Part shown: positions 35,314 to 53,905 of the stretch, in pieces
How the letters are laid out: every line of letters begins with the position of its first letter
How positions within the stretch are numbered: the stretch's first letter is position 1
Origin: Bradyrhizobium sp. AZCC 1610
GTDB lineage: Bacteria > Pseudomonadota > Alphaproteobacteria > Rhizobiales > Xanthobacteraceae
Direction of reading: 5' to 3'
Length of the DNA: 64,000 bases
Assembly: GCF_036924515.1 (NCBI RefSeq)
Contig: NZ_JAZHRR010000001.1
Span: 4,559,001-4,623,000, forward strand
Position numbers and translations under genes: made by a program
Notes under the pieces: generated by a model
What the model saw: only the letters and a program-made list of their open reading frames with translations
The model's database searches: none
What the model was told of the DNA's origin: nothing

Positions 35314-35542
35314 GGGCACCAGCAGATCAAACGATCCCGCCCCCCACACACAAGCCTTTTGGAATGGTCAGCGCATTCCCGAGCATCCCGGCGAACAAAT
35401 CGGCTAGTCTACCCCGACCGAAAGCATCCTCCAAAGAGCTCGCTCATCTGAAATTCGGGCCGTCATAGCCTCGTCAAGCATGGCCAGCCCTGACGCGCCT
35501 TGAGAGCACATCGCAACTGCTATGCGCCGCATGGTATCGCCA

Positions 35543-36811: not shown

Positions 36812-36854
36812 ATCGCTGGAATTTGCGCGAGCGATTTCCCACGTCGCGGCGACC

Positions 36855-37433
36855 TTAGTGCAGAGGTATCCCCGCCTTGCCTGGAAAGTTGATCAAGCTG
36901 CCGCCCTCCCGAACAGCAGCGGGGTTGTGTGTGTCACTGCCAAGCTGATTTGACGCGTGGACATCTGGCTCTTGAGCTGGGGAGTACGCCGCTGGCATCC
37001 CCTCCCCGACGCTAGCCTGAGTATCCCGTTTCGTCGTACCAATCCGATCTATCGTTTCCTGCATGAGCGATGTTCCCAAATGAACGCGTCGCTCGACTTG
37101 TGCGGCAAATTCGTCAAAGCGTTCCGCCCCTAGCATGCAGGCAGTGCGCAGAGCGGCGGCTGGCAGCGGTGGCGTCACTGCAAGGTGGTATCGGGCCTGA
37201 AGCGCGACAGTCTCGTTTACGATTCTAAGATCGCGATCGAGTTGCTCGAGTTGGCGGCCCAAAAGGGTAAGGCGATGGTCGACCGAGAGGTTATCAGTGT
37301 CGTCGTCAGCACGGAGGAACTGAGCGAGCGCGGCCTCAACAAGCGCTGATTTGCTGGCACCGGGACGCTTGGCCGCCGCCGTCAGCCGTGCGGCCATTTG
37401 TTCAGAGAGGTAGACGCCAATCCTGGGCTTCAT
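36855..37433 (-). CDS. CopG-type ribbon-helix-helix protein (second copy)
   Basis: This is a 192-residue paralogue of the trb-proximal CopG protein. Its ribbon-helix-helix, KPRIGVYLSEQMAARLTAAA then GASKSALVEAALAQFL, and the following VNETVALQARYHLAVTPPLP and LGAERFDEFAAQVERRVHLG match, from memory, the standard CopG protein that normally lies between traG and trbB. Here it is separated from traG by the MFS gene. This suggests that the traG-copG unit was rearranged or duplicated. Confidence 0.8.
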   Translation of the reverse strand: MKPRIGVYLSEQMAARLTAAAKRPGASKSALVEAALAQFLRADDDTDNLSVDHRLTLLGRQLEQLDRDLRIVNETVALQARYHLAVTPPLPAAALRTACMLGAERFDEFAAQVERRVHLGTSLMQETIDRIGTTKRDTQASVGEGMPAAYSPAQEPDVHASNQLGSDTHNPAAVREGGSLINFPGKAGIPLH

Positions 37434-37696
37434 GCTTGGACCTTGTTTGAAACGCTATTGAACTGTGCTTGCGGCGCGCACCTTGGGATCGGAAATTCGG
37501 CAACTGCCGAAAGTACCTCGACCGCCAGGAACGTGACCTACAAAAGGCGCTACGCCCGTCGCCGGGCAATCTCTCAATTGCTGTCGTCGCATGTTCGGAT
37601 AGATCCGGGTACAGAAACTGACTCAGGCTTGTGAGTGCCTTGGAGTAGCGGCACCACGCAGAGTTCGCACGCCGAAATGCGCGGCGCGTCCGGCGA
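37434..37696. other. Gap between second copG and relaxase gene
   Basis: No convincing gene is seen. Short open frames here have no recognisable motifs. The stretch may hold the promoter of the copG copy. Confidence 0.35.
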
Positions 37697-39455
37697 TCAA
37701 ATTCCGAGACCAATTTTCCTTCCGAAGGTCCAGGTCACACCGCCCCCTTTCGTTGCGATGCCTGACACCTCCCGACCAAGATGCTGCTCCAACGCCGGTC
37801 GCCAAGGTACAAGCTGGAATCCAAATCCATCGTCGATCATGGCAAACCGCCCCGACGCCAGCGTTACGCGTTGACGATAGATACCTGCGACATGCTCACC
37901 TTCAGACGAAGGATGATGGAGCAATCCGGTCTCGGCCGAGAGCCTCGACGCAGCCGCATCAAGGTCCCGTTGTCTTAAAGTATTGAGGAGATCGCGGGCG
38001 AAGATAACGCGCTGCCCTTGTCTCCGCGCGACACCTTCGTCTGCGAGATGGTCGATCCGGCGCTCCATCGCATCTTGCACTACTGTTCCGAAACCGGCGC
38101 CGCCGACCTCCGAATCACGGGCAAGCAACTGCCGGTCGATCCAGGTCGCGCCCTGCGCCGTGACCTGAGCCTCGATGCTGAGATCCGATCGCGTGGCAAG
38201 CTCGAGGCGTTTGCGGCCTTGCGCATCCTCGTATGCCCGTGCTTCCACGATCGCGCCGGGCGTGGCATCGCCGGTCATTTCTAGATCAGTGAACCTGATG
38301 TGATGCGTTCGTCCATCTATGCCCTCGATGATCGCATAGGCCGAACCTTTCAGCTCGTCGTGTAGCCCGCGCTCGACCAGGCGGCCAACCACTGCGTCTG
38401 CCGGCTCATCGCCGTGCAGGGCAAAGCCCGAGACATCTGGTTCGCGACCGATGCCGGCGATAGCCCGATGCATGGTCTTGAGAATATCGCCACGAATCGA
38501 GAGATCACGAAGCTTGTCCTCGATACCAGGTTTGAGGGTCCAGCAACCGGGTGCAATCTGCTCGGCAAGCCCGAAACGTTCCAGCCTGGTTGCCCGGCCG
38601 ACCATCAGACGGCGAAGTTCGGGGTCTTCACCTGTTGCATTTGGCCGAAGGTCCACCACGCCGGCCCCTTCGTCGGCGACAATACGCAACGCCTGATCTA
38701 GACTCGTCCAACGCTCGGCCTCAACGTCCCTCGTCAGGGCGGATCGGATCTCTCGCTCGCTGCGTGGCCCGAGTTCGAGAGTAACGCGCTCAGTGGCGCG
38801 ATTCCGAAAGCCGCGACTGATGTAATCACGACTAATGACCAAATCCTGGCCGTTCGCGTCGCGGCCGCGGATCAGGACGTGGACATGGGGGTTGTCGGTA
38901 TTCCAGTGATCGACCGCAATCCAGTCCAGTTTGGTTTCGAGGTCCGCTGCTACATCGATCATTAGCTCTCGCGTGAAGGTACGGAGATCGCCGAGTTCGG
39001 CGGCGTCCGTCTGGAGATATGATGAAGCGGAAATGATGCCGATCGTCCTCACAGCGTTCGGCAAAGGCGCGCTCATCCGCCACATCCGATCTCGCGTTGA
39101 ACATCCGGGCGTCGGCACCGTCCCGCGTCACGCCCTCCCGCTTCAAATACGTGATATGCTTGAACAGAGGCGCTGAACGAAAGCGCGTGCCGTGGTGGCG
39201 GACCACGCGCGCCTTCATTGCCACACGTCGCGAGGTCGGTCGTAGCGACGACAAGGAGAGAGCGGCACGCCGGCCTCGTCCAAAGCGGGACCGGCTCGCG
39301 CCGCCCTTGCCGCGTCCAAAACTGTCCCCGACATGTCCGGCCCTCTTCGCAGCTCGCATGACCTGGCCGACAAAGCTTTTCGGACGCAAGTCGCGGCGCC
39401 CGCCGTCGCGAATGCGGCCGGGGCGAACGCGAAAGTCATTATCGCCGCGGCTCAT
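37697..39455 (-). pseudogene. rlxS: VirD2-like relaxase with DUF3363 (RlxS-like), apparent frameshift
   Basis: The relaxase nicks oriT and pilots the strand into the recipient. The first ~148 codons (start ATG 39455) encode a basic, Gly/Arg-rich lead and the catalytic-tyrosine region FKHITYLKREGVTRDG; the frame then runs off after IISPDGRRR. The rest, in another frame, carries the metal-binding histidines in DWIAVDHWNTDNPHVHVLIR and the DUF3363 C-terminal domain down to the stop at 37697. Removing one C of the pair at 39007-39008 (+ strand) joins SPD to DAAELGDLRTF and gives a 585-residue protein of normal length. If the indel is real, the relaxase is dead because the Tyr and His motifs are separated. 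Confidence 0.85.
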
Positions 39456-40003
39456 GATGCTACCCCGCCGACTTGCGCTAAGAAGGGCGGCTCTCGATCC
39501 GTTGATTTTCTTGACATTTCCCGATGGAGCGACGCCATGACCATTCCAGTCGTCCCCTAAAACTTAAGTTCCATCAACCACATGGGCCCGACCGAAGGCG
39601 GCGCTTTTACCTTGCCTTCCTAATCGGGCGTGCAAAGTCAACTCCGTCCTACGCTTTTTTGCGACTTCTCTAAACAAGCAGCGCTCCTTATCCCGCTGCT
39701 TCGATTGCGAGCAGCGTTCGCCATCAGCACGGTCGCGATTTGCATTCTCCAGGCGGGGTCCATGCGTTCCTTCGCGTTCAGCACTTGGGCTGTCGCATAC
39801 TCTTCATCAGGTTCGTAAACAGGGCTGTCCAAGCAGTCCGGCGCTCTCGTCCCCGAAGGGCGGCAGCAGGCAAGAGATAGCGGACATTCCCCGTTTCGCG
39901 GCCCCGCCAGGGGACGCTCACCGCGCGCGCGGATCTTTAATCTTTGCTCCTCCTCAACATGCTGGGTGCAACACCAGGCTAATCTTTCGTGCTGCTACAG
40001 CAG
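39456..40003. other. Relaxase-upstream interval, possible oriT region
   Basis: No clear gene is present. A TTG-started frame at 39638-39832 (minus strand) reads PDEEYATAQVLNAKERMDP and then degenerates; it may be a gene remnant. By position, upstream of the relaxase, an origin of transfer is expected here, but I could not identify a convincing nic site or inverted repeat. The IS110 copy begins at the right end. Confidence 0.35.
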
Positions 40004-41068
40004 TTACTGTGCAGGCCTCAATCGCAATCGTTGCGTGACCTTGGCGCCGAACCCGACGTGGAAGTCGGTTTCGCTGACCCACATCCTGTACAGGATACCG
40101 GCAAGCTTGCGCGCGACCGCGACGATCGCGCACAGCATGCTCGACCGTTTGGCGATCCGCAGGCCCCAGGCCCGCAATGCCGACCATTTCCTGACCCGTA
40201 GCAACAGGCTTGCGGCCGCCTCGCATAGCGCCTCCCGAACCGCAACGTCGCCCTGCTTGCTGATGCGGCCCTCATAGTCGATCGACGTTCCAGACTGATG
40301 TCGCCTCGGCGTCAGGCCAAAATGCGCTCCGACCGTTCGAGATCGCGCAAAGCGTCGGGGATCATCTAACCCCACTTTGAACGAAAGAGCGGCAACGGGC
40401 CCGACGCCGGGAACCGTCATCAGACGCCGACAGACCGGATCATGTTGGACCACTTGCAGGAGCACGCGATGTAACCGCTCGTAGCCCTCGAAGGGCGCTC
40501 GCCGCACGTCGAGCATGGCTTCGATGGTCATCACGAAAATCGGATCGCTACGTCAGAGCAGCTCGCGAATGCGTGCTTCGTAGGCACCTCGAGCGACGGC
40601 TCCAACCAGTAACCCATAGGCCCGCAGCGCGCCACGAATGTGGTTTTCGATGTCGATCAATTTGCGTTTGAGCAGCTTCCGATTGGCCAGCAGCGTACGC
40701 ATCTTCTGCATGTCGATGTTCTTGACGTGAACGGCGCGGTACCAGCCCAAGCGCATCATCTGTGCGATGCCGCGCGCGTCGTTCCGGTCGGTTTTGTTGC
40801 GCATTGTCGACAGTGAAACGCGCATATGACGGGCTTCGACAACGATGATCGGGATCCCGACCGGTTGTAATTCGCGGTACAACCAGATGCCCAGCGAGGA
40901 CGCCTCGACGCCCACGCGATCGAGGCGATCCGCGGAGCCTTCAAGAGCGCAGCGGATCGCCTCTGGCTCCGTGCTAACCTTCAGCTCGCGCACCGTCTGG
41001 CCCTCGCTGTCGACAACGCAAAGACTGGTTTCCTCAAGGCCGACGTCCAATCCAACGTAAAGTTTCAT
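40004..41068 (-). mobile_element. IS110-family transposase gene with in-frame stop
   Basis: This is a second, different IS110-family transposase (about 354 codons). The RuvC-like half has LYVGLDVGLEETSLCVVD, GVEASSLGIWLYREL and KTDRNDARGIAQMMR; the C-terminal half has LMTVPGVGPVAALSFK and HFGLTPRRHQSGTS. Unlike the first IS110 copy, the two halves are in the same frame but interrupted by a TGA at 40553-40555 (IRELL-stop-RSDPIFV). It is therefore a nonsense-mutated copy. It lies between the relaxase and traF genes and may have displaced the gene normally found downstream of traF. Confidence 0.85.
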
Positions 41069-41353
41069 CGGAGCTCTCCTTTGTGCCAACTACCACCTAA
41101 GTCGTTGCACCCAGGCTCCAGATTCGGCCACCAGTGGGCTAAACCCGTGCACCGGTTTCTCGAAGCCCGATTTGAAGAGCCGTCCACGGTCAGTCTGCCC
41201 CTGCTCCCAACCACGCACCGCCAAGAATGCGAATAGCTTCGACAGAATGCGATTCAGCTCACTGGCGGCGGACGCAACCGTCAGAACTGCAGACAAGACA
41301 GCCGCCACAGCGGAACAAGCGGCAATCCCAACAGAAGATGAGCGTGCCCACGA
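41069..41353. other. Short interval between IS110 and traF
   Basis: One minus-strand frame (GTG near 41308 to 41090) begins like a signal peptide (AAVLSAVLTVASAASELNRI) but then matches nothing I know. It could be the stump of a gene that followed traF, truncated by the IS110 insertion. Confidence 0.35.
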
Positions 41354-41866
41354 TCAATCCTCCCAAGTCCACACGGGAAGTACGCGACCGATGACAGCCT
41401 TTGCCGGCATCATTCCGAAGTAACGGCCGTCGAGCGAGGTTGCCGACTGCCAGTTCATTAGAAAGAGCTCGGCGTCTCCGACGACGTTGCATCCGTGCCA
41501 GATCGGCAATGGCTGGCCGCGTCTGTCGCGCTCCCGCGCCTCGCCCATCTCGATGCCATCGATCGTAATGGTGCTCCCGGTTCTGCAGACGGTTTGTCCG
41601 GGAAGCGCCAGCACACGCTTCAACATCGGAACTCCTGTCGGCAGGTAGCCATTTCGGTCCAGGTAGGTCGCCAGCGGCTCGGGCGGCTGAACGGCGACGA
41701 GTTCGGTGACGTAGTAATTGCTGGCCGCGCGCATGCGATAGAGGCCAAGAGGGACACTCTCAGAACTGTTCCAGATGCAGATTGGGAACGGCTTTGCGAC
41801 GATTGTCCCAGCGAGAATGGCAGCTGCGCCGATCGTCACCGCGAGTGTTCGGTTTCGGGGCGTCAC
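41354..41866 (-). CDS. traF: Conjugal transfer signal peptidase TraF (S26 family)
   Basis: This is a 170-residue membrane-anchored S26 peptidase that processes or cyclises the TrbC pilin. A membrane segment (LAVTIGAAAILAGTIVA) is followed by the catalytic serine region NSSESVPLGLYRM and the catalytic lysine region MLKRVLALPGQTV; the C-terminal DGRYFGMMP is also conserved. A GTG start at 41866 overlaps the DUF2840 stop (GTGA) and gives the expected length. Confidence 0.92.
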   Translation of the reverse strand: MTPRNRTLAVTIGAAAILAGTIVAKPFPICIWNSSESVPLGLYRMRAASNYYVTELVAVQPPEPLATYLDRNGYLPTGVPMLKRVLALPGQTVCRTGSTITIDGIEMGEARERDRRGQPLPIWHGCNVVGDAELFLMNWQSATSLDGRYFGMMPAKAVIGRVLPVWTWED

Positions 41867-42327
41867 AGTGCGACCCTCCGCCGACGGAGCCAGGCCTGAT
41901 GGCGTGACTTTGTGTAGGCGCGCGGGGTTTCGTTGACGGACAGGCGGTTGTGAACGTGATGCCAATAGTCGGGTGCGGCGTCGGCAGGATCAATGCCGAG
42001 GGCCTCTACGGCATCGATCAACTGCAGTACGCGTTCGACCTTTGGCCAGCCTGAAAGGCGCAAGAGACTCTCGCCGCCGGGTTTGACATAGGGGACGGTC
42101 GAGCAGCGTTGGCCGGTTGCGACCGCCCGCAAGATGTCGATGCGGGAAACGTTCGTTCCGAAATCGTTCGACATCCAGCGAACGAAAGCAAAGATGCTGC
42201 CGGGTGCGAATGACAGGACGCGCCTGTTGCGATCGAGGATTCTCTCCTCGGCAGCGCGACCGAAACGAATTCGGTTCTCGATGCGCCTTTCAAGCCAGAG
42301 AAGCTCGACCTGCGTGAGATCGCTCAT
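41863..42327 (-). CDS. DUF2840 family protein
   Basis: This 154-residue protein is recognised as DUF2840 (start TQVELLWLERRIENRIRFGR, later FVRWMSNDFGTNVSRIDILR and DYWHHVHNRLSVN). It is always found next to traF in this class of element and is co-translated with it. Function unknown. In relatives I recall a parA gene just upstream; here there is only a 250-base gap with iterons. Confidence 0.82.
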   Translation of the reverse strand: MSDLTQVELLWLERRIENRIRFGRAAEERILDRNRRVLSFAPGSIFAFVRWMSNDFGTNVSRIDILRAVATGQRCSTVPYVKPGGESLLRLSGWPKVERVLQLIDAVEALGIDPADAAPDYWHHVHNRLSVNETPRAYTKSRHQAWLRRRRVAL

Positions 42328-42429
42328 GAGGCCCCTCCGTCTACCCGGAGGTCCAACGCTTGCGGACGCGCACGCAGATCGCGCGGCGACGGGTTATGCA
42401 CAGCAGGGAAAACGGCGCGGTCCGTTAGA

Positions 42430-42448
42430 AGAAATCCGAAGGATTTCT
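42430..42448. repeat. Hairpin flanked by GTTAGAAG direct repeats
   Basis: AGAAATCC-GAA-GGATTTCT is a perfect 8-bp stem. The octamer GTTAGAAG occurs on both sides (42424-42431 and 42450-42457). It lies between repA and DUF2840, next to the iterons, and may be part of an origin or a weak terminator for repA. Confidence 0.4.
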
Positions 42449-42507
42449 GGTTAGAAGAGTTACGGCGGCTCGAACGCACGTGATCACAAGCGCTTAAGCC
42501 CGATTCC

Positions 42508-42572
42508 GGTCCCCGATAGCACGAGGATCCGGTCCCCGATGGCACGAGGGTTGTGGTCCCCGATAGCACGAG
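42508..42572. repeat. Three iteron-like direct repeats, candidate replication origin
   Basis: The 18-mer GGTCCCCGATAGCACGAG occurs at 42508-42525, 42531-42548 (one mismatch, GATG for GATA) and 42555-42572. The period is 23-24 bases, about two helical turns. It starts five bases beyond the repA stop codon. Direct repeats of this spacing next to a RepA gene are the classical layout of iterons bound by the initiator. Confidence 0.7.
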
Positions 42573-42577
42573 TTGAT

Positions 42578-43459
42578 TCACAGCTTATCTCCAGCCTCCG
42601 GCGCCAGCCCGCGCTTGCGAAGCCGCTCCTCGAACGGATCGGTGCAACGCGGCGCAAAGTTCAACCGTTCGACGCCGTTTGGGTCGCGCGTGATCACGAG
42701 CTCATAGCCGGGCAAGGTCTGCCGACTGACGATTTCGCGCAGGTCGAACGCAAAATGCTTGAGAGGCGAGAGACTGCCGGACTTGGCGTGGAGATGCAGA
42801 AAGTCGAAACTCCAGCCGCCTTGCTGGCGGCCGCCATGCTTGCGGACGAGCCGGTAAAGCCAACGCTCGAGCCCTCCGGTTAAACCAAAATAGGCACGGT
42901 CGATGGTCAGCACGAGCGCGTCATCCAGAACGCCGGCAAAGAACCAGTCCGGCAGGATCAGTTCGAGACCCGTTGGGCGCCCGTTGGCGTCGGCCGTCTC
43001 CTTCCATTCGTTGATCCAGGAAAAACGATGCCGCCGCCGTTCTGCCGGCTGGCGGATCGACGTCAGCACCGACGTCGCCTGCAGCCGGTCAAGACCTGCC
43101 TTGAGGCGCTCGTAGTTGCGCGCGCTGGTGCCGCGGCCAGCAAAGGTCAGGATTTCATAAGGCGTCGCCGCCATCAGACGCGAGGTCTTCAGGCCGGCGT
43201 CGCGCGCCTCGACAATTTGCGAGGCGGCCCAGATCAGGACATCAGCATCCCAGATCGTCGCCATGCCGTGTTCGGGCACCGCTTCAACGCGAATGGAGAT
43301 TGCCCCCGCCCGGAAATCGATCGGTACAATCCGCTTTGACTTTGCGAGCGAGAAGAACGGATAAGCCATCAGGTCCTGGGCGTCGCGCGGCGCGAGATCG
43401 CCCGGCAAGGCACGAAACAGCTCGAGCTGGCTGCGCTCGGATCGAGATTTGCGCCGCAT
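42578..43459 (-). CDS. repA: RepA-like replication initiator (RPA family)
   Basis: This is a 293-residue plasmid-type replication initiator. Recognisable segments are RSERSQLELFRALPGDLAPR at the start, DLMAYPFFSLAKSKRIVPID, IWDADVLIWAASQIVEAR (winged-helix region), ATPYEILTFAGRGTSARNYE and GLERWLYRLVRKHGGR. Such proteins let some ICEs replicate as circles after excision. Three iteron-like repeats follow the stop codon directly. It lies 21 bases after the excisionase gene and is probably in its operon. Confidence 0.88.
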   Translation of the reverse strand: MRRKSRSERSQLELFRALPGDLAPRDAQDLMAYPFFSLAKSKRIVPIDFRAGAISIRVEAVPEHGMATIWDADVLIWAASQIVEARDAGLKTSRLMAATPYEILTFAGRGTSARNYERLKAGLDRLQATSVLTSIRQPAERRRHRFSWINEWKETADANGRPTGLELILPDWFFAGVLDDALVLTIDRAYFGLTGGLERWLYRLVRKHGGRQQGGWSFDFLHLHAKSGSLSPLKHFAFDLREIVSRQTLPGYELVITRDPNGVERLNFAPRCTDPFEERLRKRGLAPEAGDKL

Positions 43460-43480
43460 TTACCAATGCTCCCGCAGCAA

Positions 43481-43762
43481 TCAGCGACGTTCGTGGCCCG
43501 CATAGGGGCGCAGTGCCGGATGCTTCTTGGCAGGCAGGACCGTCCCCTTCCCGGGATCGGACGTCGATGTCTTGGACCCGAGATCGGCCCAGGCTTTCAG
43601 ATCATCGAGCGCATAGACGACCCGGCCGCCAATCTTCCGATAAGTCGGACCGGTGCCGTAGGTACGGTGCTTCTCCAAGGTGCGGCCGGAGAGCCCGAGA
43701 TATCGCGCGGCCTCGGGTGTGCGCAGGAAACGTGGCGGCAGACCGGCCATGGGATCGGGCAT
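43481..43762 (-). CDS. rdfS: Helix-turn-helix excisionase, RdfS-like recombination directionality factor
   Basis: This is a 93-residue AlpA/MerR-like DNA-binding protein. The helix-turn-helix and wing read PRFLRTPEAARYLGLSGRTL, then GPTYRKIGGRVVYALDDLKAW. Its place, between an fseA-like gene and the repA-DUF2840-traF-relaxase series, is that of rdfS in ICEMlSymR7A, where the protein directs the integrase to excise the element. The ATG at 43762 (MPDPMAGLPP) is chosen; an ATG 21 bases upstream is possible. The name is by context and fold, not by a search. Confidence 0.75.
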   Translation of the reverse strand: MPDPMAGLPPRFLRTPEAARYLGLSGRTLEKHRTYGTGPTYRKIGGRVVYALDDLKAWADLGSKTSTSDPGKGTVLPAKKHPALRPYAGHERR

Positions 43763-43894
43763 TTGAGAACTCCATGAAGACATCGCGCGAATGCTGGCGG
43801 TGCCAGCGTGTGTGCAGTGATCATGGAGGAGCAGCCCTTCGCAGGGGGATGCCGAAGATCGAGGGGTGGATTTTCGACACCCCCAAGCGAGCGG

Positions 43895-44664
43895 CTATTT
43901 GTCCTTGCGTCTTGGACGCAGGAGTTCGCGATAACCGCCGCGCATCAAAGCGAGGCCGCGCTGCACGAGGCGGATGGTACGATTGCGCAGATCATGCGTC
44001 TTCCAGGCGCCGCTCCGGGATGCGCTTCTTGCCAAAAAGACCTTCGGCAATCGCACGATAGCTCTTGTTTTCATTGCGCCCATCCAGGGCGCGCAAAACC
44101 AACGTAAATCGCTGGCGCCGCTCCGGAGAAAAGCCGGACGGCGGTGGTCCAGGCGAACGGCCACTCAGCGTACGCCAAAGCGATTGGGCAGCCTGGGCGC
44201 GGAGCTCGAACGACGAGTCCATTGGCAGCTCAATCGCTTGCGGCGAGCCGGCGGCAGGCAGTTTCCTCATCCACACGCGATGCGTGGCGCCATCGAACCG
44301 TAGCACGGCATGCCAGCCGTCCGCGTTCTGCCGCAACTCGCCGGGCGGCAGTCTTGTTAGATCCAGAGCGATCGGTTGAGCTGAAGTTTGCGACGACGAA
44401 GGCCCTACCGACAAAACGGTCGGCAGAACTTCAGGCGCCCAAAAGACGATCTGCTCGTGACAGGCCTTCTGCGGATCAGCCGCGAAAAGACAGGCCCCAT
44501 TTTTTCCGGAATTCGGCTGGCGCGCCGGCAAGCGGGTTTTCAAGCGCGCGATAGTGTTTTTTGTATTCGGGATTACGACGGAGGCATTCCCAGGCGAGAC
44601 CGGTCAGGTCGGCGTTCTGCAGTTTTGAATAGGCCTCGGGCGAGCGCCAATCGAAATCCGGCAT
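43895..44664 (-). CDS. fseA: FseA-like excision activator (DUF6499-DUF2285), +1 programmed frameshift, second indel near 3' end
   Basis: Two overlapping frames encode one protein. Frame 0 (44664-44476) gives a 62-residue DUF6499-type domain (MPDFDWRSPEAYSKLQNADL ... RKKWGLSFRG-stop). The continuation, AADPQKACHEQIVFWAPEVL onward, is in the +1 frame and is a DUF2285 domain. The junction is TCT-TTT-CGC, where tRNA-Phe can slip from UUU to UUC, as described for msi172/msi171 (FseA) of ICEMlSymR7A. The fusion activates rdfS there. The DUF2285 frame ends early at 43992; removing one C of the pair at 44010-44011 (+ strand) restores the conserved tail WKTHDLRNRTIRLVQRGLA down to 43895. That second shift looks like a true or artefactual indel. 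Full length would be 255 residues. Confidence 0.8.
44484..44490 (-). promoter_or_regulatory. +1 programmed ribosomal frameshift site UCU-UUU-C
   Basis: On the minus strand, codons TCT (44490-44488) and TTT (44487-44485) are followed by C at 44484. Slipping one base forward re-pairs tRNA-Phe with TTC (44486-44484), and the next codon, GCG, opens the DUF2285 frame. The zero frame stops two codons later (CGC GGC TGA). This matches the UUU-to-UUC slippage reported for FseA. Confidence 0.75.
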
Positions 44665-44817
44665 TGTGCTTGATCCTCACGCGTAACAATGCCGCATTGC
44701 AACACTGCAAATATGGGCCATTTATGGTTGCATAACGTATCCCACCGTTTAGTTACGCGAATTATCTGCAGTTCAGAAGATTTTTCCCTCCCGATTTTAT
44801 TTTGCAGATTGTTTGTC

Positions 44818-45099
44818 CTACTGATCGGCGGGTCCACCGCGCAGCAAATGTCCATAGCCGTGATTCGTCATCCATCTGGCGCGAGCCAAATGACTCTCGA
44901 AGGCGCTGCGCGCACGCTCCGGGTAGCGTTCGGGATCGATGTGAAGAACGATTCTTGCAACGTCCCGCCAGTCCGCATTGTCGGCGTCAGCATCCAGCAG
45001 CCGGAGATAGGTGACGACGTGTTGCTCGTCGTAGGCCGTCAGCACGGGATCAACCGGTGCCAGGTCCGCAACATCGGGATCAAGCGGGGGTGACGGCAT
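44818..45099 (-). CDS. qseM: QseM-like antiactivator (small DUF2285 protein)
   Basis: This is a 93-residue standalone DUF2285 protein: AYDEQHVVTYLRLLDADADN, WRDVARIVLHIDPERYPERA, and FESHLARARWMTNHGYGHLL. In ICEMlSymR7A the protein of this type, QseM, binds and blocks both TraR and FseA, keeping the ICE silent in most cells. The ATG at 45099 is preceded by AAGGAG. It is divergent from a small XRE regulator, as qseM is from qseC. The frame extends upstream, but without a comparable ribosome site. Confidence 0.78.
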   Translation of the reverse strand: MPSPPLDPDVADLAPVDPVLTAYDEQHVVTYLRLLDADADNADWRDVARIVLHIDPERYPERARSAFESHLARARWMTNHGYGHLLRGGPADQ

Positions 45100-45248
45100 G
45101 TAGCTCCTTCGAGACGGCGCGCAGCTGCGGCTGTCCCCATTCAGTGATAGCCCCACTTTAGTCCTATTCGGCACAGTTTCGCAGCCAAGCTTTACGAAGG
45201 CAGCCATTCCTGGAGGACATTCGAATGCCGACGCACTTGGGAATACAC

Positions 45249-45272
45249 ACTATAGGAGATAAACCTCATAGT
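45249..45272. promoter_or_regulatory. Imperfect palindrome, candidate QseC operator
   Basis: ACTATAGG-AGATAAA-CCTCATAGT is an imperfect inverted repeat between the divergent qseM-like and qseC-like genes, about 24 bases before the qseC start. XRE regulators of this type usually autoregulate through such sites. Assignment is by position only. Confidence 0.45.
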
Positions 45273-45295
45273 ATGTAAAGAAGCAACTTGCGCGA

Positions 45296-45547
45296 ATGGA
45301 TATGCGCAAGTTGGTTGGCCGAAACTTCGAGCGATTGCGGAAGCAGAAGGGCTTCACGCAGGAGAAGTTTTCGGAAGCATCCGGCTTTACCCAACAATAC
45401 ATCAGCGGTCTCGAACGCGGACGTCGCAATCCGACCATCGTTACACTGTTTGAACTCGCAACGACCTTGGGCGTGAGCCATATCGATCTTGTGCTACCAG
45501 ATGATGAAGCACGTAGCGAAAGGTCCAAGCTGACCAGGAAAAAGTGA
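45296..45547 (+). CDS. qseC: QseC-like XRE-family regulator
   Basis: This is an 83-residue helix-turn-helix protein: LRKQKGFTQEKFSEASGFTQ then YISGLERGRRNPTIVTLFEL, with a basic C-terminus. It is the only plus-strand gene in the core of the element and is divergent from the qseM-like gene. This reproduces the qseC-qseM pair of ICEMlSymR7A, where QseC sets the level of the antiactivator. A second in-frame ATG lies six bases downstream. Confidence 0.75.
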   Translation: MDMRKLVGRNFERLRKQKGFTQEKFSEASGFTQQYISGLERGRRNPTIVTLFELATTLGVSHIDLVLPDDEARSERSKLTRKK

Positions 45548-45711
45548 ACGATTCCATCCGAATATCTAGCACTGACGAGTGTGCCTCTCAGCTCTTCCGC
45601 GAGCCGGACCGAAGGTCCGGCGAGCGCCGGCGCGGACACGCGTCCGCCCCTGACCCGCTTGCCGGATCCGCAGCTACGCGCTTGGGGCGCCTGGGCAATA
45701 AATGAAAAATG

Positions 45712-45739
45712 GCCGCGCAATTTTCTCAGATTGCGCGGC
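45712..45739 (+). terminator. Hairpin downstream of qseC
   Basis: GCCGCGCAAT and ATTGCGCGGC form a perfect 10-bp stem with an 8-base, T-rich loop, 165 bases after the qseC stop. No T-tract follows. Confidence 0.4.
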
Positions 45740-45840
45740 TCACGTTCTAGACAGCGCGTTCCATCAAGCGTTTGGCTGGCCGGAACGGAGCGAGGAGTAA
45801 AGAACCCCTGACTGTTCGATTTCACCTCACAGGTGAGGAA

Positions 45841-45867
45841 GCCCCGCCGGGCGGATCCAGGCGGGGC
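45841..45867 (-). terminator. Hairpin downstream of DUF736 gene
   Basis: GCCCCGCC and GGCGGGGC form an 8-bp GC-rich stem with an 11-base loop, 19 bases beyond the DUF736 stop codon in the direction of transcription. Confidence 0.5.
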
Positions 45868-45885
45868 ACTTGCCGATGCAGATCC

Positions 45886-46206
45886 TCACTTGCCGTTCTT
45901 GCGCGGCCGCGACCAGATCAGCGTGTAGCCATCGCCTTCCTCGTCGTCGAACAGGTTCGCGTAGATCGGCGCGTTGAACGAGGGATCGTCGAGCTTGAGC
46001 GAGAGGTAATCGCGGCCCTCTTCGGAACGCTTCGCCCAGGCGGCCCCGATCTCAGCCCGGCCGACGAAGACGCGGTGGCTGGGGGCGTTCTCGTTGGTGC
46101 GGTTGGTCTCGGCGACGATCCGGACACCGCGGGCCGGCATGCTGAGGGTGACGATCTCACCCTGGAAGTCGTTGCCGACCTTCTTGAAAGAACCGATGTT
46201 AGCCAT
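45886..46206 (-). CDS. DUF736 family protein
   Basis: This is a 106-residue DUF736 protein: start MANIGSFKKVGNDFQGEIVT, then NAPSHRVFVGRAEIGAAWAK and YLSLKLDDPSFNAPIYANLF. The family is a constant companion of ArdC, DUF2493 and relaxase genes on alphaproteobacterial conjugative elements. The fold is probably a small beta-barrel; function unknown. AAGGAGAAG precedes the ATG, and the leader carries a hairpin shared with the DUF2493 gene. Confidence 0.88.
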   Translation of the reverse strand: MANIGSFKKVGNDFQGEIVTLSMPARGVRIVAETNRTNENAPSHRVFVGRAEIGAAWAKRSEEGRDYLSLKLDDPSFNAPIYANLFDDEEGDGYTLIWSRPRKNGK

Positions 46207-46742
46207 GTTACTTCTCCTTAGCTAGTTTCGAGCCGCGACCACCGCGGCCTCGATGGCGATCTACAGGCCGAGGACGATCGACGACGCACCCGCCTGCGGG
46301 CCGGAGCGCAGCGGAGGACGCCAAAGGGGAGACTTTCTTGTCTCGCGAGGAATGGGCGTTAGCCCAGGGGAAGAAAGTTGACCCGCGGCGTTGCGGTTAG
46401 GCGATCGAGGCGCAGCCGGTCTTCGGCCAGATCAAGCCATCAAAAGGCCCGGTGCGTCCGTGCGCTGAACTGTACCCTCAGGAGAAGTCGTGGCGAATCT
46501 CGGTTGTGCTGCACAAGATGTCGCTACGTTCAACCAAAGAGAAGGAAACAAAAGCGAAGGAATAGGCGGAATCGATTGTCTTGAACAAATCGCGATGAGA
46601 TGCCCGTGCCCTGCATTAGTGGTCCGAGCAAGGTGAGACGCCAGGAACCAAGCGTTCCAAGACCGACCGCATTACCCAGCGGTCCATCACGCGGCCAATC
46701 AACGCCCCGATTGCAGGTAACCTTGCTCGACGAGACAGAGGC
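46207..46742. other. Leader and intergenic region upstream of DUF736
   Basis: No gene is seen. The DUF736 leader hairpin is at 46232-46248. Further upstream are a GGAGCGCAGCGGAGGACGCC stretch resembling sequences upstream of other genes in this block (48470s, 53900s) and an inverted pair ACTTTCTT/AAGAAAGT at about 46331 and 46371. Confidence 0.45.
46232..46248 (-). promoter_or_regulatory. Leader hairpin, type 1 (DUF736)
   Basis: GCCGCG-ACCAC-CGCGGC, a perfect 6-bp stem with a 5-base loop, ends 26 bases before the DUF736 start codon. The same stem with loop CCCAT occurs 24 bases before the DUF2493 gene start. Confidence 0.5.
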
Positions 46743-47243
46743 TCATCCCTGTTGCGTGGAGGCAGTGAGAGCCGGCTGAGGTCCGTTCGGCAAAGCGTCG
46801 ACCGGTCGCACGGGCTCGGCAAACATGGTCATCCGTGTCCAGGCTGCGGTGCCGATCGCTATAGCGCCGATCCAGGCAAAGGCGTCCCGCCATAGCAATG
46901 ACGACATCCCGATTTGCGATAGGCCATGACCGACGTAATAGCCCGCGACGGCTGCCGGAACTACAAAAGCAGCCGCAACTATGGCACGAAGAATTGCGGA
47001 TCGAGTGAAGGCAAAGGCCGTCTGCCCAATGACAAGAGTGAAAGCGCCGGAAAGAATAGCGATAAGAACTGCACCGGGGATGCCCGCACCATGAACCGCA
47101 GCTAGCCCCACAGAAAGCGCGACGAAGAACGGCAGCGCGTAGACAGAGAGGGTGAAGATCAGCCAGCAAAACAGGCCGATGCCGAGCATATTGAGAATGG
47201 GTCCGAGGATAAGCATGGTGGCGGTCTCCGCGACAAAGGACAT
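46743..47243 (-). CDS. Hydrophobic membrane protein of unknown function
   Basis: This is a 166-residue protein from the ATG at 47243 (a GTG eight codons upstream is also possible). It has four or five hydrophobic segments (for example MLGIGLFCWLIFTLSVYALP and AIVAAAFVVPAAVAGYYVGH) and a Pro-rich polar tail. I do not recognise the family. A GGAAGG precedes the ATG. It lies between the DUF736 and DUF2493 genes on the same strand and may be an envelope function of the element. Confidence 0.65.
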   Translation of the reverse strand: MSFVAETATMLILGPILNMLGIGLFCWLIFTLSVYALPFFVALSVGLAAVHGAGIPGAVLIAILSGAFTLVIGQTAFAFTRSAILRAIVAAAFVVPAAVAGYYVGHGLSQIGMSSLLWRDAFAWIGAIAIGTAAWTRMTMFAEPVRPVDALPNGPQPALTASTQQG

Positions 47244-47440
47244 GACGGTCGCGCCTTCCACCACCACGGCGCAGTCGTGAATATAACGGAGAACAACCGG
47301 GTTATGGGAGTGATAATCTTCACTCGCCGCCCGTGGGCAAGAGCGGGACCTTTCTGCTCATGCCTTGATTCTGTCGAGGTCAGACGATCTACGGGGGCTT
47401 AGTAGCGTCGACGCTTAACCCCCCACCCGTTCGGCGGCGC

Positions 47441-48373
47441 TTACGCGCCGCCGAATTTCCAAACGGGAATGCCAAGCTTCTTGGCCTTGTCGGCAAGATT
47501 GTCCTGTATTCCGGTGCCGGGGAAGTGCATGACGCCGATCGGCAGCACCGCAAGCATGGCATCATTGCGTTTGAACGGAGCTGCCTTGGCATGCTTGGTC
47601 CAGTCGGGCTTGAATGCGATCTGCGGCACCTTGCGGTTGGTCGCCCATTTGGCGGCAATCAGCTCAGCGCCCTTGGGCGAGCCACCATGCAGCAGGACCA
47701 TGTCAGAGTGCTTGGTGTGGACCTTGTCGAGTCGATCCCAGATCATGCGGTGATCGTTGAAATCGAGTCCACCGGTAAGCGCGATCTTGGGTCCGGATGG
47801 TAGCATCGTCTCGGTTTCGGCGCGGTGTTTGGCGGCCAGAAAGTCGCGGCTATCGATCATCGCTGACGTGAGCGTGCGATGATTGACCAGTGATCCTGAA
47901 CGGGGACGCCAGGGCGAGCCGGTGTGAAGTTCGAATTGCTCGGTGGCGAGGTCGCGGAACAGCTCCATGGCGTTGCGGCGTTCGATCAACGTGATGCCTT
48001 CGGCCGTCAGCCTTTCGAGTTCGACCGATCGCACCTCCGATCCATTCTGCTCGCGCTGGCTCTTCTGCTGCGCCTGCTCGTTGTCGTCGAGCTCGCGCTC
48101 GATGCGGCTGGTGGCGCGGTGGAACAGGTTGACGGTCGACCAAAGCAGATTTTCCAGGTCGGGTTCGAGCCGGGTATCGCTCAGCGTCGCTACGAAAGCG
48201 TCGAAGATATCGGCGATGGCACCCGCGATGACCTTGCCTTCGGGTAGCGGCCTCGGGTCAGGTTCGTCTTGGAAGGGACGGTGACCGTAAAGCTGAAGCT
48301 CGTTGAGGATGTGATCGGTCGGTGATGAGTCGTGCCGCGGTTCGAACTCGGTATCGTCATGGTCGGTCGTCAT
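47441..48373 (-). CDS. DUF2493 domain protein
   Basis: This is a 310-residue protein whose C-terminal ~120 residues are a DUF2493 (SLOG-like) domain: KIALTGGLDFNDHRMIWDRL, MVLLHGGSPKGAELIAAKWA, and IGVMHFPGTGIQDNLADKAK. The GG and GGSPKG loops suggest nucleotide or nucleotide-derived ligand binding. The N-terminal part is helical and acidic with a short coiled-coil-like EDNEQ-rich region. It is common on conjugative elements next to DUF736 and ArdC. Role unknown; defence modulation is one possibility by fold relationship only. Confidence 0.85.
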   Translation of the reverse strand: MTTDHDDTEFEPRHDSSPTDHILNELQLYGHRPFQDEPDPRPLPEGKVIAGAIADIFDAFVATLSDTRLEPDLENLLWSTVNLFHRATSRIERELDDNEQAQQKSQREQNGSEVRSVELERLTAEGITLIERRNAMELFRDLATEQFELHTGSPWRPRSGSLVNHRTLTSAMIDSRDFLAAKHRAETETMLPSGPKIALTGGLDFNDHRMIWDRLDKVHTKHSDMVLLHGGSPKGAELIAAKWATNRKVPQIAFKPDWTKHAKAAPFKRNDAMLAVLPIGVMHFPGTGIQDNLADKAKKLGIPVWKFGGA

Positions 48374-48396
48374 GATGAGAGGTCCTTTGCCGGATC

Positions 48397-48413
48397 GCCG
48401 CGCCCATCGCGGC
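48397..48413 (-). promoter_or_regulatory. Leader hairpin, type 1 (DUF2493)
   Basis: GCCGCG-CCCAT-CGCGGC, a perfect 6-bp stem, ends 24 bases before the DUF2493 start codon and is enclosed by an outer GATCGCC/GGCGATC pair. It matches the DUF736 leader hairpin. Confidence 0.5.
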
Positions 48414-48490
48414 CTTCCTGGCGATCACCAGACGGCGGGCGGAGTGGACCAGAACCCGAAGCGAAGCGCAGGGCCGGAGCGAGGCGGAGG

Positions 48491-48568
48491 ATGGCTGAGG
48501 TGCGGCTATTTTGTTTCGCGATGCAAAGGCGCGACAGCGCCGGCGGAAAATAGCCGCACCTCAGCCAT
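48491..48568. repeat. Perfect 22-bp inverted repeat with 34-base spacer
   Basis: The arms are 48491-48512 and 48547-48568, beginning ATGGCTGAGGTGCGG and ending with its complement. They are perfectly complementary over 22 bases. The repeat lies between the toprim gene and the DUF2493 gene on the transcribed side. It could be a strong terminator/attenuator, an RNA-processing site or a single-strand origin. Confidence 0.6.
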
Positions 48569-48688
48569 TGCCGGTCCGGGCCGCTTGCCGTCCGATCGCC
48601 CTCTAGAAGGCCGTGCGCGCGACTCTGTCCGGCAACTCTGACCGCGCACTGACAGTCGATGACGATATCAAGTTCAAATCGCCTGCCA

Positions 48689-49756
48689 TTACCCCGTATC
48701 GGTTGCAGATCGAGGAAGGTAGCGGGCGACGTCCTCTGGCAGAAGCTGTACGCGTGTGGCTGCCCGAAGTTCTTCAACGCCTAACGTGCGAAGATCCTCG
48801 TTAAAGTCGCCGAGCCTGGGCGACAGTGGAAACGCCTCGATGCCGGCCTCTTCCGCGCGCGTCGTCAAGGTCCTCGCCGCGCCCATCCCGGCCGCATCCC
48901 CATCGCAAGCGATGTAGAGGCGTCGCAGCGTCAGCGGGAGCAGCAGGGCCGCGAGGTGGTTGGCTGAGAGTGCCGCCGCCATCGGCATGGTCGGAAGCAC
49001 ACAGCCAAGCGAGAGCATGGTCTCGATGCCCTCGCCCGCAATGAGCACGTCACTCGCCACACCGAAGCGAACTGCGTTGCCGAGTAGATCACCCATCGCC
49101 CGTCGTGGCGTTTCGATCGGCGCCTTGCCGAGCCGATTTGGATCAAAGCTCTCCGGATCGAGCCATGTGCGGTGGACGCCAGTGATAATGCCGTCAAGAT
49201 CGCTGACGCAGGCGATCATTGCCGGCCAGATCTCAGGAGGTGACGCTTCATCGGCCCCCCGGTAATAGCAGCGAGGCTGATACCGGAGACTGCCACCGTG
49301 GTGCAGCTCGGCAATACCCCGACGGTGCAGATACAGCTCCACGAGAGTCCCCTCAGTCGGCCGAGATATCGCAAAGAGGCGTCTCGCCGCTTCTCGCGAT
49401 CCGCGCTGCACCGCTGGACGAACCGCTTTTTGGGCAAGCTCTGGGCCGGAACGAGGCAGATTCAGAAATCGCCTCGCTTCGTTGGCAACATCGCGGAAAT
49501 CGTGGAGACCAAGACGTTCGCGAATGATGTCGAGCAAATCACCATGTTCGCCGGTGGCAGCATCAGTCCACTTGCCCGCCGGCCCCTTCGGGGATTCGTA
49601 GAGTCGCACAAACAAGGAGCGGCCCGGTGTATTTTGGACGTCACCCACCAGCCAATAGCGCCCCTCGCGCTTGCCGTTGGAGAGATAGTGGCGGCATACC
49701 CCCTCGGCCTCACGCGCGAGACAGCGTGCGAGTTCGGAAGCATCGCGGGGCATCAC
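48689..49756 (-). CDS. Toprim/primase-like protein
   Basis: This is a 355-residue protein with an N-terminal region typical of DUF7146-type primase-like proteins (CRHYLSNGKREGRYWLVGDV) and a C-terminal Toprim domain: IAGEGIETMLSLGCVLP carries the catalytic Glu, and RRLYIACDGDAAGMGAARTL the DxD. Such proteins accompany the large helicase on these elements and probably act in conjugative or vegetative DNA replication. The start overlaps the helicase stop by four bases. Confidence 0.85.
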   Translation of the reverse strand: MMPRDASELARCLAREAEGVCRHYLSNGKREGRYWLVGDVQNTPGRSLFVRLYESPKGPAGKWTDAATGEHGDLLDIIRERLGLHDFRDVANEARRFLNLPRSGPELAQKAVRPAVQRGSREAARRLFAISRPTEGTLVELYLHRRGIAELHHGGSLRYQPRCYYRGADEASPPEIWPAMIACVSDLDGIITGVHRTWLDPESFDPNRLGKAPIETPRRAMGDLLGNAVRFGVASDVLIAGEGIETMLSLGCVLPTMPMAAALSANHLAALLLPLTLRRLYIACDGDAAGMGAARTLTTRAEEAGIEAFPLSPRLGDFNEDLRTLGVEELRAATRVQLLPEDVARYLPRSATDTG

Positions 49757-52599
49757 GCGGCCTCCCGTCCGCCAACGCGGTTGACGGGATAGCGTTCGAG
49801 TACTTTGGCGAGAACGCCGACGCCGCCGGCGTCCGTCGGCGCGAACATGCGCAGCTTCCAGGAGATGATCTCACTTAAGAGTCCATAGGCGCACAAGCGG
49901 TCGCGCATGGTGTCGCTGAAGTCAGACAGCTCTATCCGATAAGCGCCCATGACGCGCACGCGCCTAAGTTTCAAACCTTCGGCGAGGTCGAGAACCGTGC
50001 GACCTTCGAGCAGCGCGGCGAAGGCTTCCTCGGGTTTGAGCGCCGGCCGCTCCCCGATCAGTGTGTTGGCGACCCAGGCGGGCGAAACCTTCCGCCCAAT
50101 GATGCGCTCGCCGGCGTCGGTCTGGAGACGATAAACAGGTGTCGACTCGTTCGGCAGCCACTTCCAGATCGGCAGGAGCAGTCCGGCGACGACATGAATC
50201 GTGCTCTTCGTGAACTCCGGCACCTCGGAGAACTCGGCTTGCCAGACTGCGCCGAATCGCTCGCGATCGGTCTCGATCCAATGGCTTTCCGCCATCGCCT
50301 TCAGCGGAACACCGTGGCTTTCCATCGGCCGGATCAACCGCACGCGTTGCTCGATCTCACCGTCATCGAGCATGAGGCTCGACGCCGGGACCTGCACGGC
50401 GGCGCGGCCGGAGCGCTCGTTGACCAACAGGACGGCGCGGCGGTCCGATAGACGGCGGAGCGCGTCATCTAGAGTCAATGGCCGGTTGCGCTCCCGCTGC
50501 GCAATGGTGAGCAGCCACGTCTGCGCGCCGGTACCGGGATGGGTGTAGATCGCGCGGCGGTCCGTGACCACGAAGCTTTCGGCCCCGAGGGTCTCCAGAC
50601 CGAGGTCGTAGATCCCGGACGCCGTGGCGCCTTCGATCCGAGCGGTCAGCAACTGCTCGAAGGCGGTGAACAGCACGTTTTGCAGGTCGATGGTCAGCGC
50701 CAGCAGGCGGTTGAGGAAGGTGGTGATCGGCGGCAAGTCATCCCTGATGCCGTTGGAGTCGGTGAGCTTCAGCCCGGTCGCATCCTCGAACGTCTGAAGG
50801 GAGCAGCCGTCGACCTTGCCCCGGACCAGGAGCATGTAAAGCTGGCGGAGAGCATCACGCCCGTAGCTGCTCTCGAGATTATCTTCGGGCCGGAAGAGCC
50901 CCTGCCCGCCGGTCTGGCGTTGACCGCGGGTGATCGCCCCGAGCGTGTCAAGCCGGCGCGCGATGGTGCTGAGAAAGCGCTTCTCGGCTTTCACATTGGT
51001 TGCAATGGGACGAAACAGCGGCGGCTGCGCTTGGTTGGTCCTGTTCGTGCGGCCGAGACCTTGGATCGCAGCATCCGCCTTCCAGCCGGGCTCGCGCAGG
51101 TCGTGCACACGGAGGCGCCGATTCCGGGCAGACAACTCGGCATGATAGCTGCGCCCCGTCCCGCCGGCGTCCGAGAAGACGAGGATGCGCTTGACGTCAT
51201 CCATGAACGCCGCGGTCTCGGCGAGGTTCGCCGACCCGGCGCGGTTCTCAACCATGAGGCGCTCGCTTTTGCGGATGATCCGGCGCGAGCGTCCGGTGAC
51301 TTTGGCTACCATGTCGGAACCGAAGCGCTGGACGATCTGGTCGAGCGCGCCGGACACCGGTGGGAGCGAGGCGAACTTCTCGATCAGCCGGTCGCACCGG
51401 CTAACGGCCTCCCGGCTCTCGACCGGATGACCGTCGCGGTACACGGGCCGGGAAGAAAGATTACCTTCCGAGTCGGTGAAGGGTTCGTACAATTGGACCG
51501 GAAAGGAATGGGCGAGATAGTCGAGCACGTATTCTCGCGGCGTAATATCGACCTGGACGTCGCCCCACTCCTCGGTTGGGATCTCTGCAAGCCGCCGCTC
51601 CATCAGCGCTTCGCCGGTCGAGACGATCTGGATGACGGCTGCGTGTTCTTGTTCAAGATCTTGCTCGATCGAGCGGATCAAGGAAGGCGTCTTCATCGAG
51701 GTGAGAAGATGGCCAAAGAAGCGTTGCTTCGCGGATTCAAACGCCGACCGGGCCGCCGACTTGGCCTGCGCGTTCAGCGTCCCCATCTCGCCGGTGATGT
51801 TCGCCGCCCGCATCGCCGCGTCGAGATTGTTGTGAATAATTCTGAACGCGCCGGCATAGGCGTCGTAGATGCGAATTTGCTCGGGCGTGAGTTCGTGCTC
51901 AACCAGCTCGTATTCGACGCCGTCGTAGGAAAGTGAACGCGCCGCATAGAGGCCGAGCGCCTTGAGATCGCGCGCCAGCACCTCCATCGCCGCAACGCCG
52001 CCCTCCTCGATCGCCTCGACGAATTCAGCGCGCGTCGCAAACGGGAAGTCTTCGCCGCCCCAGAGGCCAAGCCGCTGAGCATAGGCGAGGTTGTGGACCG
52101 TCGTGGCGCCGGTCGCTGAGACGTAGACCACGCGCGCATTGGGCAAGGCGTGCTGGAGCCGCAGGCCCGCACGCCCCTGCTGCGAGGCGGCCTGGTCGCC
52201 GCGGTCACCCTTTCCGCCGACGGCATTCTGCATCGCGTGGCTCTCGTCGAAAACGACCATCCCGTCGGAGTCGGAGCCCAACCATTCGACGATCTGCCGG
52301 ACGCGCGAAATCTTCTCGCCGCGCTCGTCGGACCGCAGCGTAGCGTAGGTCGTAAATAGGATGCCTTCCGACAATCGGATCGACGTGCCCTGGCGGAAGC
52401 GCGAAAGCAGTGTAACCAGGAGCGGCTCCATGCCGAGCGCGGACCAGTCTCGCTGCGCGTCGTCGATCAGCTTGTCGCTCTTGGAGATCCAGACTGCCCG
52501 GGGACGTCCCTTCAGCCAGTGTCGACGCCTGAACAGGAGCTTGTTGAACGGGATGTAGCGCGATCGCGAGAAGACGATCTTCTTGGCAGCCTTGGCCAT
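49753..52599 (-). CDS. Strawberry-notch-type helicase C-terminal part fused to a ParB-like start
   Basis: This is a 948-residue protein. From about residue 27 it matches the large strawberry-notch-like helicases of these elements: WLKGRPRAVWISKSDKLIDD, LFTTYATLRSD, MVVFDESHAMQNA (DExH), VVYVSATGATT and DAAIQGLGRTNRTNQAQPPL. The full family protein, as I recall it, has ~1,440 residues with an N-terminal methylase-like region and a Walker A (GDGTGxGKGRQ) just before this point; both are missing. Residues 1-22, MAKAAKKIVFSRSRYIPFNK and following, instead resemble the first residues of the ParB protein that normally lies upstream. A deletion has thus fused parB's start to the helicase body in frame. 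Without Walker A, helicase activity is unlikely. Confidence 0.82.
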   Translation of the reverse strand: MAKAAKKIVFSRSRYIPFNKLLFRRRHWLKGRPRAVWISKSDKLIDDAQRDWSALGMEPLLVTLLSRFRQGTSIRLSEGILFTTYATLRSDERGEKISRVRQIVEWLGSDSDGMVVFDESHAMQNAVGGKGDRGDQAASQQGRAGLRLQHALPNARVVYVSATGATTVHNLAYAQRLGLWGGEDFPFATRAEFVEAIEEGGVAAMEVLARDLKALGLYAARSLSYDGVEYELVEHELTPEQIRIYDAYAGAFRIIHNNLDAAMRAANITGEMGTLNAQAKSAARSAFESAKQRFFGHLLTSMKTPSLIRSIEQDLEQEHAAVIQIVSTGEALMERRLAEIPTEEWGDVQVDITPREYVLDYLAHSFPVQLYEPFTDSEGNLSSRPVYRDGHPVESREAVSRCDRLIEKFASLPPVSGALDQIVQRFGSDMVAKVTGRSRRIIRKSERLMVENRAGSANLAETAAFMDDVKRILVFSDAGGTGRSYHAELSARNRRLRVHDLREPGWKADAAIQGLGRTNRTNQAQPPLFRPIATNVKAEKRFLSTIARRLDTLGAITRGQRQTGGQGLFRPEDNLESSYGRDALRQLYMLLVRGKVDGCSLQTFEDATGLKLTDSNGIRDDLPPITTFLNRLLALTIDLQNVLFTAFEQLLTARIEGATASGIYDLGLETLGAESFVVTDRRAIYTHPGTGAQTWLLTIAQRERNRPLTLDDALRRLSDRRAVLLVNERSGRAAVQVPASSLMLDDGEIEQRVRLIRPMESHGVPLKAMAESHWIETDRERFGAVWQAEFSEVPEFTKSTIHVVAGLLLPIWKWLPNESTPVYRLQTDAGERIIGRKVSPAWVANTLIGERPALKPEEAFAALLEGRTVLDLAEGLKLRRVRVMGAYRIELSDFSDTMRDRLCAYGLLSEIISWKLRMFAPTDAGGVGVLAKVLERYPVNRVGGREAA

Positions 52600-52610
52600 G
52601 TCGGTTACTC

Positions 52611-52657
52611 CACGACGGGCGGCCGAAAGCCTCTCTCTCGGCCTCCAACCCGTCGTG
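52611..52657 (-). promoter_or_regulatory. Leader hairpin, type 2 (helicase/ParB-like start)
   Basis: An outer 9-bp stem CACGACGGG/CCCGTCGTG encloses an inner 6-bp stem GGCCGA/TCGGCC with loop AAGCCTCTCTC, ending 12 bases before the start codon. The same architecture precedes ardC. Confidence 0.55.
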
Positions 52658-52704
52658 GCGCTCCGCGCCGCCCTCTTCCTCTCGACGGCGTTGACGGAAA
52701 GCGA

Positions 52705-53667: not shown

Positions 53668-53678
53668 CGCGGTTCTCC

Positions 53679-53722
53679 GCGACGGGCGCCGGAAGCCTCT
53701 CCTCCGATCTTCAACCCGTCGC
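53679..53722 (-). promoter_or_regulatory. Leader hairpin, type 2 (ardC)
   Basis: An outer 8-bp stem GCGACGGG/CCCGTCGC encloses a short inner stem around the loop AAGCCTCTC, ending 11 bases before the ardC start. It matches the hairpin before the helicase gene in size, stem and loop. Confidence 0.55.
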
Positions 53723-53905
53723 GCAGTCCCGGCCCGCACTCTCACTCTCAACGGCGGTGACGCCCCACGCACTTCGGGGGGAAATGGACTGTGCATTCGC
53801 ATGGCTTTTCGACAGGGATGGACGCCAAAGGGTGACGACCCGCGAAGCGGGGCCTCAGCGCAGCCGGAAAGACCATTCTCGCAGGGAGCCGCCGAAAAGC
53901 GCCGG

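Follow-up and report, generated by a model that had tools for sequence, protein, structure and literature searches.

An fseA-type gene with a conserved +1 slip site and a second frame break in a probably decaying ICE-like element of Bradyrhizobium

The fseA locus and its neighboring genes

The stretch of 64,000 nucleotides analysed here, called the window, comes from the genome of Bradyrhizobium sp. AZCC 1610 (G000), a single 7.75-Mb contig. On its minus strand, a frame of 62 aa at 44476..44664 matches Pfam PF20109 (DUF6499; E 1.4e-20) and carries the N-terminal motif AWECLRRN, being the counterpart of msi172 of ICEMlSymR7A. Its last codons are TGG GGC CTG TCT (44490-44488) TTT (44487-44485) CGC GGC TGA. 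The slip site, TCT TTT C, occupies 44484..44490 on the same strand, where a +1 slip from UUU (44487-44485) to UUC (44486-44484) would give the reading SF-AADPQKACHEQ and lead into a frame of 163 codons (43992..44483, minus strand). This slipped frame contains the middle region and the first half of DUF2285, as found by its match to PF10074 (now RovC_DNA-bd; E 5.3e-18) and in the ORF list, and it ends prematurely in RRLEDA and a stop. No match was found for it among solved structures.

A preliminary description of this DNA, made from the letters alone, had proposed both the 62-codon frame ending TCT TTT CGC GGC TGA and the entry into the DUF2285 frame by this slip; the coordinates are exact, and the two profile matches agree with the sequence. 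The FseA slip of ICEMlSymR7A was reportedly described as UUU-to-UUC in a PNAS paper of 2015. The context required for the slip site (TTT C before the stop, after TGG GG) is present in the window, where the pattern TGGGGNNTNTNNTTTCGCNNNTGA occurs once. A chance origin was rejected, given its absence from all 100 shuffles together with the presence of the motif in 31 of the 33 distinct genes described below. A second DUF6499 match, at 29463-29573 (E 0.015), falls within trbE and was discarded as a probable chance hit.

In Mesorhizobium japonicum R7A, the FseA of ICEMlSymR7A (msi172-msi171) consists of DUF6499 and DUF2285 joined by a +1 slip, and its gene adjoins qseM, qseC and rdfS (PMC10359603, PMC5009743); the DUF6499 motif published for it is AWEFLRRN (PMC10359603), similar to that of the window. 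The window has the same two frames, the same +1 slip site and the same neighbors, so far as these reports describe them, but differs in a second break that strands the DUF2285 end. We conclude that the window gene is of the fseA type, with a +1 slip site at which slippage would join DUF6499 to DUF2285.

Downstream of fseA, on the minus strand, are an rdfS-like excisionase gene (HTH_17; 43481..43783, likely start near 43759), assigned by profile match and gene order, and the replication initiator protein A gene repA (42578..43459; PF10134, E 1.1e-86). Upstream, profile matches revealed a qseM-like gene on the same strand (44818..45099) and a divergent qseC-like HTH_3 regulator gene on the plus strand (45296..45547). 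The qseM-like protein has DUF2285 as its sole domain, measures 93 aa when counted from its likely start, carries a net charge of -7 and resembles the published antiactivator QseM. The known qseC-qseM-fseA-rdfS order is kept, bearing out the earlier proposal that these neighbors belong to the known circuit, and an identical gene order is annotated on the Bradyrhizobium guangzhouense plasmid NZ_CP030054.1. Upstream of rdfS, alignment of 7 of 8 elements, the eighth having no rdfS in its stretch, yielded no common inverted repeat that would represent the FseA box, a pair of inverted hexamers with a spacing of 15-16 bp. In contrast with the control of ICEMlSymR7A, no TraR-type autoinducer-binding protein was found over the cut-off in the window's genome by PF03472, with one match below it (E 6.7e-4).

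Conservation of the slip site in Bradyrhizobium

The comparison of the junction across DUF6499-DUF2285 homologues, which the preliminary description had proposed, covered 38 loci: the window, a second copy in the same genome (copy 2), 7 named loci and 29 of the best 30 same-genus loci. The same-genus search matched 163 of 265 genomes, the best matches alone entering the motif count. A DUF6499 match was present in 37 of the 38 loci (L023 has none), corresponding to 33 distinct genes; L001 and L010 are the window itself and were left out of the motif count, while the pairs L003/L012, L004/L013, L005/L011 and L006/L015 each represent one gene and were counted once. All 7 named loci found are from Bradyrhizobium, and some same-genus genomes carry genes identical to theirs.

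The slip motif was found in 31 of the 33 distinct genes, window counted, in the form TGG GGN NNN NNN TTT CGC NNN followed by a stop. Of these 31 slip-type genes, 29 have a shifted frame of 193-196 codons that reaches its normal end, with the window (163 codons) and L035 (101 codons, broken elsewhere) falling short. As for the two non-slip genes, L030 is fused in a single frame, and in L031 the DUF6499 frame continues to 79 codons. The frequency of the motif among the sampled genes agrees with the conservation published for FseA-like proteins, in which the +1 site is present in about 61% of 4709 curated homologues of Proteobacteria (PMC10359603). Compared with those proteins, the window has the same slip site and domain order but a truncated product, a break after the slip being seen in 2 of the 31 sampled slip-type genes. 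The slip site in the window is a real feature of an already published kind, the FseA arrangement, and it adds Bradyrhizobium cases to a known and widely conserved translational switch.

A second frame break strands the DUF2285 end

At 44008..44013 (minus strand), the window is 1 nucleotide longer than all 7 aligned relatives, and the frame breaks for a second time. The slipped frame terminates early at 43992, with the ending GKKRIPERRLEDA, while the conserved DUF2285 end AWKTHDLRNRTIRLVQRGLALMRGGYRELLRPRRKDK sits in the third frame (43895..44008, minus strand; 37 codons and a stop), in an ORF that matches PF10074 positions 60-107. In the 7 relatives aligned at this point, both DUF2285 parts share one frame. 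The slip site proposed for the span 43895-44664 is thus at the proposed place, but reading the full span requires a second frame change, which the preliminary description overlooked. A second break was also sought in the viral_contigs scan and none was found there.

The window product would have 60 + 163 = 223 residues, against 60 + 195 = 255 for the unbroken form, and its slipped frame does not contain the complete helix-turn-helix (HTH) of DUF2285. In the model of the FseA DUF2285, as presented in PMC10359603, H2b ends at the conserved Trp235, after which come H3 and H4; the cleft that receives DUF6499 is built by H1 and H4 (alpha5 and alpha9). Half of the HTH, with its recognition helix, should lie in the stranded 37 residues. 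When mapped on the published model by motif and order, the break would deprive the DNA-binding domain of its conserved tryptophan, its recognition helix and its last helix, and the truncated 223-residue product should be unable to activate rdfS.

The stranded codons are very well preserved. Relative to copy 2, they show 6 synonymous and 0 nonsynonymous differences, and relative to AUGA SZCCT0283, 4 and 0. The corresponding values are 6 and 1 for CSA112, 5 and 1 for both valentinum and G233, 9 and 4 for the MAG, and 12 and 3 for G091. This comparison used the C rows, leaving out the N and M rows of copy 2 and valentinum, misregistered through a wrong ATG, and also the M row of G091, in which the lengths are unequal. 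The absence of any amino-acid difference from copy 2 and AUGA SZCCT0283 indicates that the break is either very recent or an assembly error.

A second copy in the same genome

Only two PF20109 loci were found in the genome, the window and copy 2. The fseA of copy 2 (C1:6608875-6609405) is full-length, with the slip site and the complete end. The element that contains it (G000:C1:6588-6616 kb) has frame-broken trbE and repA, and inspection by eye of the ORFs near its ends revealed no obvious integrase.

Element bounds, ends and transfer genes

The relative G192 has an empty site in which the sequences that flank the element in the window (on the left, to 21235; on the right, from 59104) are 11 bp apart, so the element corresponds to about 21236..59103 (about 37.9 kb). 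A sister element occupies the same site in G160, whose fseA gene is common to AUGA SZCCT0283. At the right end of this sister there is a 427-aa integrase-like gene whose end lies 66 bp short of the hydratase stop; on the sister's left side, the 3' end of the hydratase is duplicated over 341 bp (326/341 identical). It was not possible to identify end repeats of the attL/attR type in the window element, where the longest shared words are 9 bp (direct) and 10 bp (inverted). The sister's integrase-like gene was searched for in the whole genome, the sole match being 28% identical, at 905 kb.

The integrase-like protein did not match Pfam, PHROGs or NCBIfam models or solved structures, so that its identity rests on the R250, R364, H387 and Y396 residues, invariant in 22 aligned sequences, and on its genomic place; with this R, R, H, Y signature it looks like a tyrosine recombinase. 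PF00589 found no match in the window, a weak test since this model also misses the sister's gene, which matches no family model. Beyond the window, this model finds its nearest integrase at a distance of 74 kb. A protein of about 425 aa at L062:13478-14761, which resembles a tyrosine recombinase but has no match in Pfam, PHROGs or NCBIfam, has 1773 relatives at E<=0.001 among 8000 scored, and relatives on six Bradyrhizobium plasmids. The sole serine recombinase match (PF00239) in the genome is at G000:C1:4556499-4556879, about 2.1 kb to the left of the window.

The relaxase gene (DUF3363; 37697..39455, minus strand) is frame-broken at 39007-39009 in comparison with five relatives (copy 2, G091, G208, G233 and G257), in which it is intact in one frame of 584-592 aa. 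The trb/traG conjugation genes (23520..35349, minus strand) were assigned by NCBIfam models, order and homology: TrbE and TraG are over the NCBIfam cut-off and TrbI below it, the other trb genes being assigned by order and homology. They are homologous to those of the relatives and mostly in one frame, with an ambiguous trbL start. Compared with self-transmissible ICEs of the ICEMlSymR7A type, the window element has the trb pilus genes and traG, but has no integrase match, no end repeats and no unbroken relaxase.

Other features were observed in the window. A 229-bp direct repeat (94%), at 53899-54127 and 58795-59023, surrounds a block of SNase, RES, Xre-like (below cut-off) and HipA genes, with related copies beside the second element and in G160; this repeat is a possible oriT or recombination scar. 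Two same-frame ORFs parted by a stop are found at 40004-41089, a pair that looks like a split IS110-type transposase. The strawberry-notch-type helicase at 49753-52599 looks N-terminally truncated, its PF13872 match beginning at profile position 84 of 306.

Frame breaks in the element and in the host genes

Among the matched genes of G000, 7 of 134 in the vicinity of rpoB and 4 of 77 around the window showed apparent frame breaks before inspection. The same search in G192, taken as a yardstick, gave 3 of 130 and 3 of 74; these are raw counts with two of the six flagged regions aligned, unlike the inspected G000 set. On inspection, 3 of the 11 host breaks of G000 were kept as genuine: a CoA-transferase (near 4027505), a FAD monooxygenase (near 3990623) and an aminotransferase-like gene, the second member of a tandem pair (14335-16894; break at about 16009 of the window), which is broken relative to G192, G208 and G257. 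The remaining 8 were put down to ORFs in antisense or spacer DNA, ambiguous start regions or insertions in non-coding DNA and were dropped, 7 of them judged by eye from alignments and the eighth (an 857-codon ORF near 4649 kb) by the hit list alone. An unfiltered host census near the window yielded 8 apparent breaks in 70 genes, with no further one kept.

The two ICE copies carry 4 breaks, those of the relaxase and fseA in the window and of trbE and repA in copy 2, with split hits at the trbL start, and antisense ORFs, having been dropped. The filtered ICE search flagged the window fseA (from G091 only), among others, and the relaxase break appeared in the unfiltered search alone. When four other ICE relatives were compared among themselves, 1 gene was flagged in 12 comparisons. 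The resulting density is 4 breaks in roughly 47 kb of the two ICE copies against 3 in roughly 200 kb of host coding DNA (p 0.028), or p 0.098 for the window element alone against the host. Since both coding lengths are estimates and the search of the ICE was less strict than that of the rpoB region, a bias toward decay, the enrichment speaks weakly for decay.

Is excision still under control of the slip site?

The preliminary description also held that the switch keeps excision of this element in check, a claim that the sequence does not support: the FseA frame is cut by a second break shared with no near relative, and the element has neither the sister's integrase-like gene nor its end duplication, besides carrying a frame-broken relaxase. 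Because fseA is broken again and the parts for excision seem to be lost, the slip site, although inherited, probably does not control excision here. We suggest that the window holds an ICE in decay that has lost the ability to excise on its own, with the second copy keeping a full-length fseA, and give this reading a probability of roughly 0.64. In this reading, the ICE-like element of Bradyrhizobium carries an fseA-type gene with the conserved +1 slip site, in which a second, single-nucleotide break would shorten FseA to 223 residues instead of 255. The shortened protein, devoid of the recognition helix, would fail to activate rdfS. The element also seems to have lost the integrase-like gene and one end repeat, and its relaxase is broken, while the second copy in the genome has a full-length fseA.

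The main alternative is that the second break is an assembly error and the true gene a normal, functional fseA that has the +1 slip. We regard this as rather unlikely, although it deserves serious attention, since the stranded DUF2285 end is perfectly conserved and host genes of G000 also show apparent single-nucleotide breaks, 3 of 11 of which were kept. On the other side, the two ICE copies seem to contain breaks at a higher density than the host coding DNA, a weak argument for the reasons given above, and a base-calling error cannot yield the missing integrase-like gene and repeat. Decay is favored over assembly error for the second break. That the break is instead a second programmed frameshift, so that a full FseA would need two slips, seems hardly credible to us. 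The stranded end is indeed conserved and open, and the shift required is +1, as in the first. But the extra nucleotide is missing from all seven aligned relatives, 29 of the 31 slip-type genes attain their normal end without a second shift, and at GAG CGG CGC CTG no tRNA appears, on inspection, to re-pair well one base further.

It is also conceivable that the short FseA and the 62-residue DUF6499 peptide still act, by binding QseM or by mis-pairing with the FseA of copy 2, thus linking both elements. The ICE activator would then have turned into a short form that slips and binds QseM through DUF6499, but not DNA, tuning the FseA of the second ICE. According to PMC10359603, FseA residues 15-55 are necessary and sufficient for QseM binding; this part is unbroken in the window, and the fseA of copy 2 is full-length. 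Nothing points, however, to the short form having been selected for, and no near relative shares it, making both the residual activity and such a tuning role very improbable.

Decay of the transfer-control genes of a resident ICE has precedent in Mesorhizobium ICEs, for which PMC8627217 describes pseudogenised quorum-sensing genes, naming traI2 and qseC variants. The same process would be seen here, but the case differs from those named there in affecting fseA, along with the loss of the integrase-like gene and one end repeat. It calls for caution in reading such loci, because a conserved slip site alone does not show a working switch and the downstream gene can be broken. Since the genome of this Bradyrhizobium holds both a full-length and a short fseA, it would offer a natural test of ICE cross-talk.
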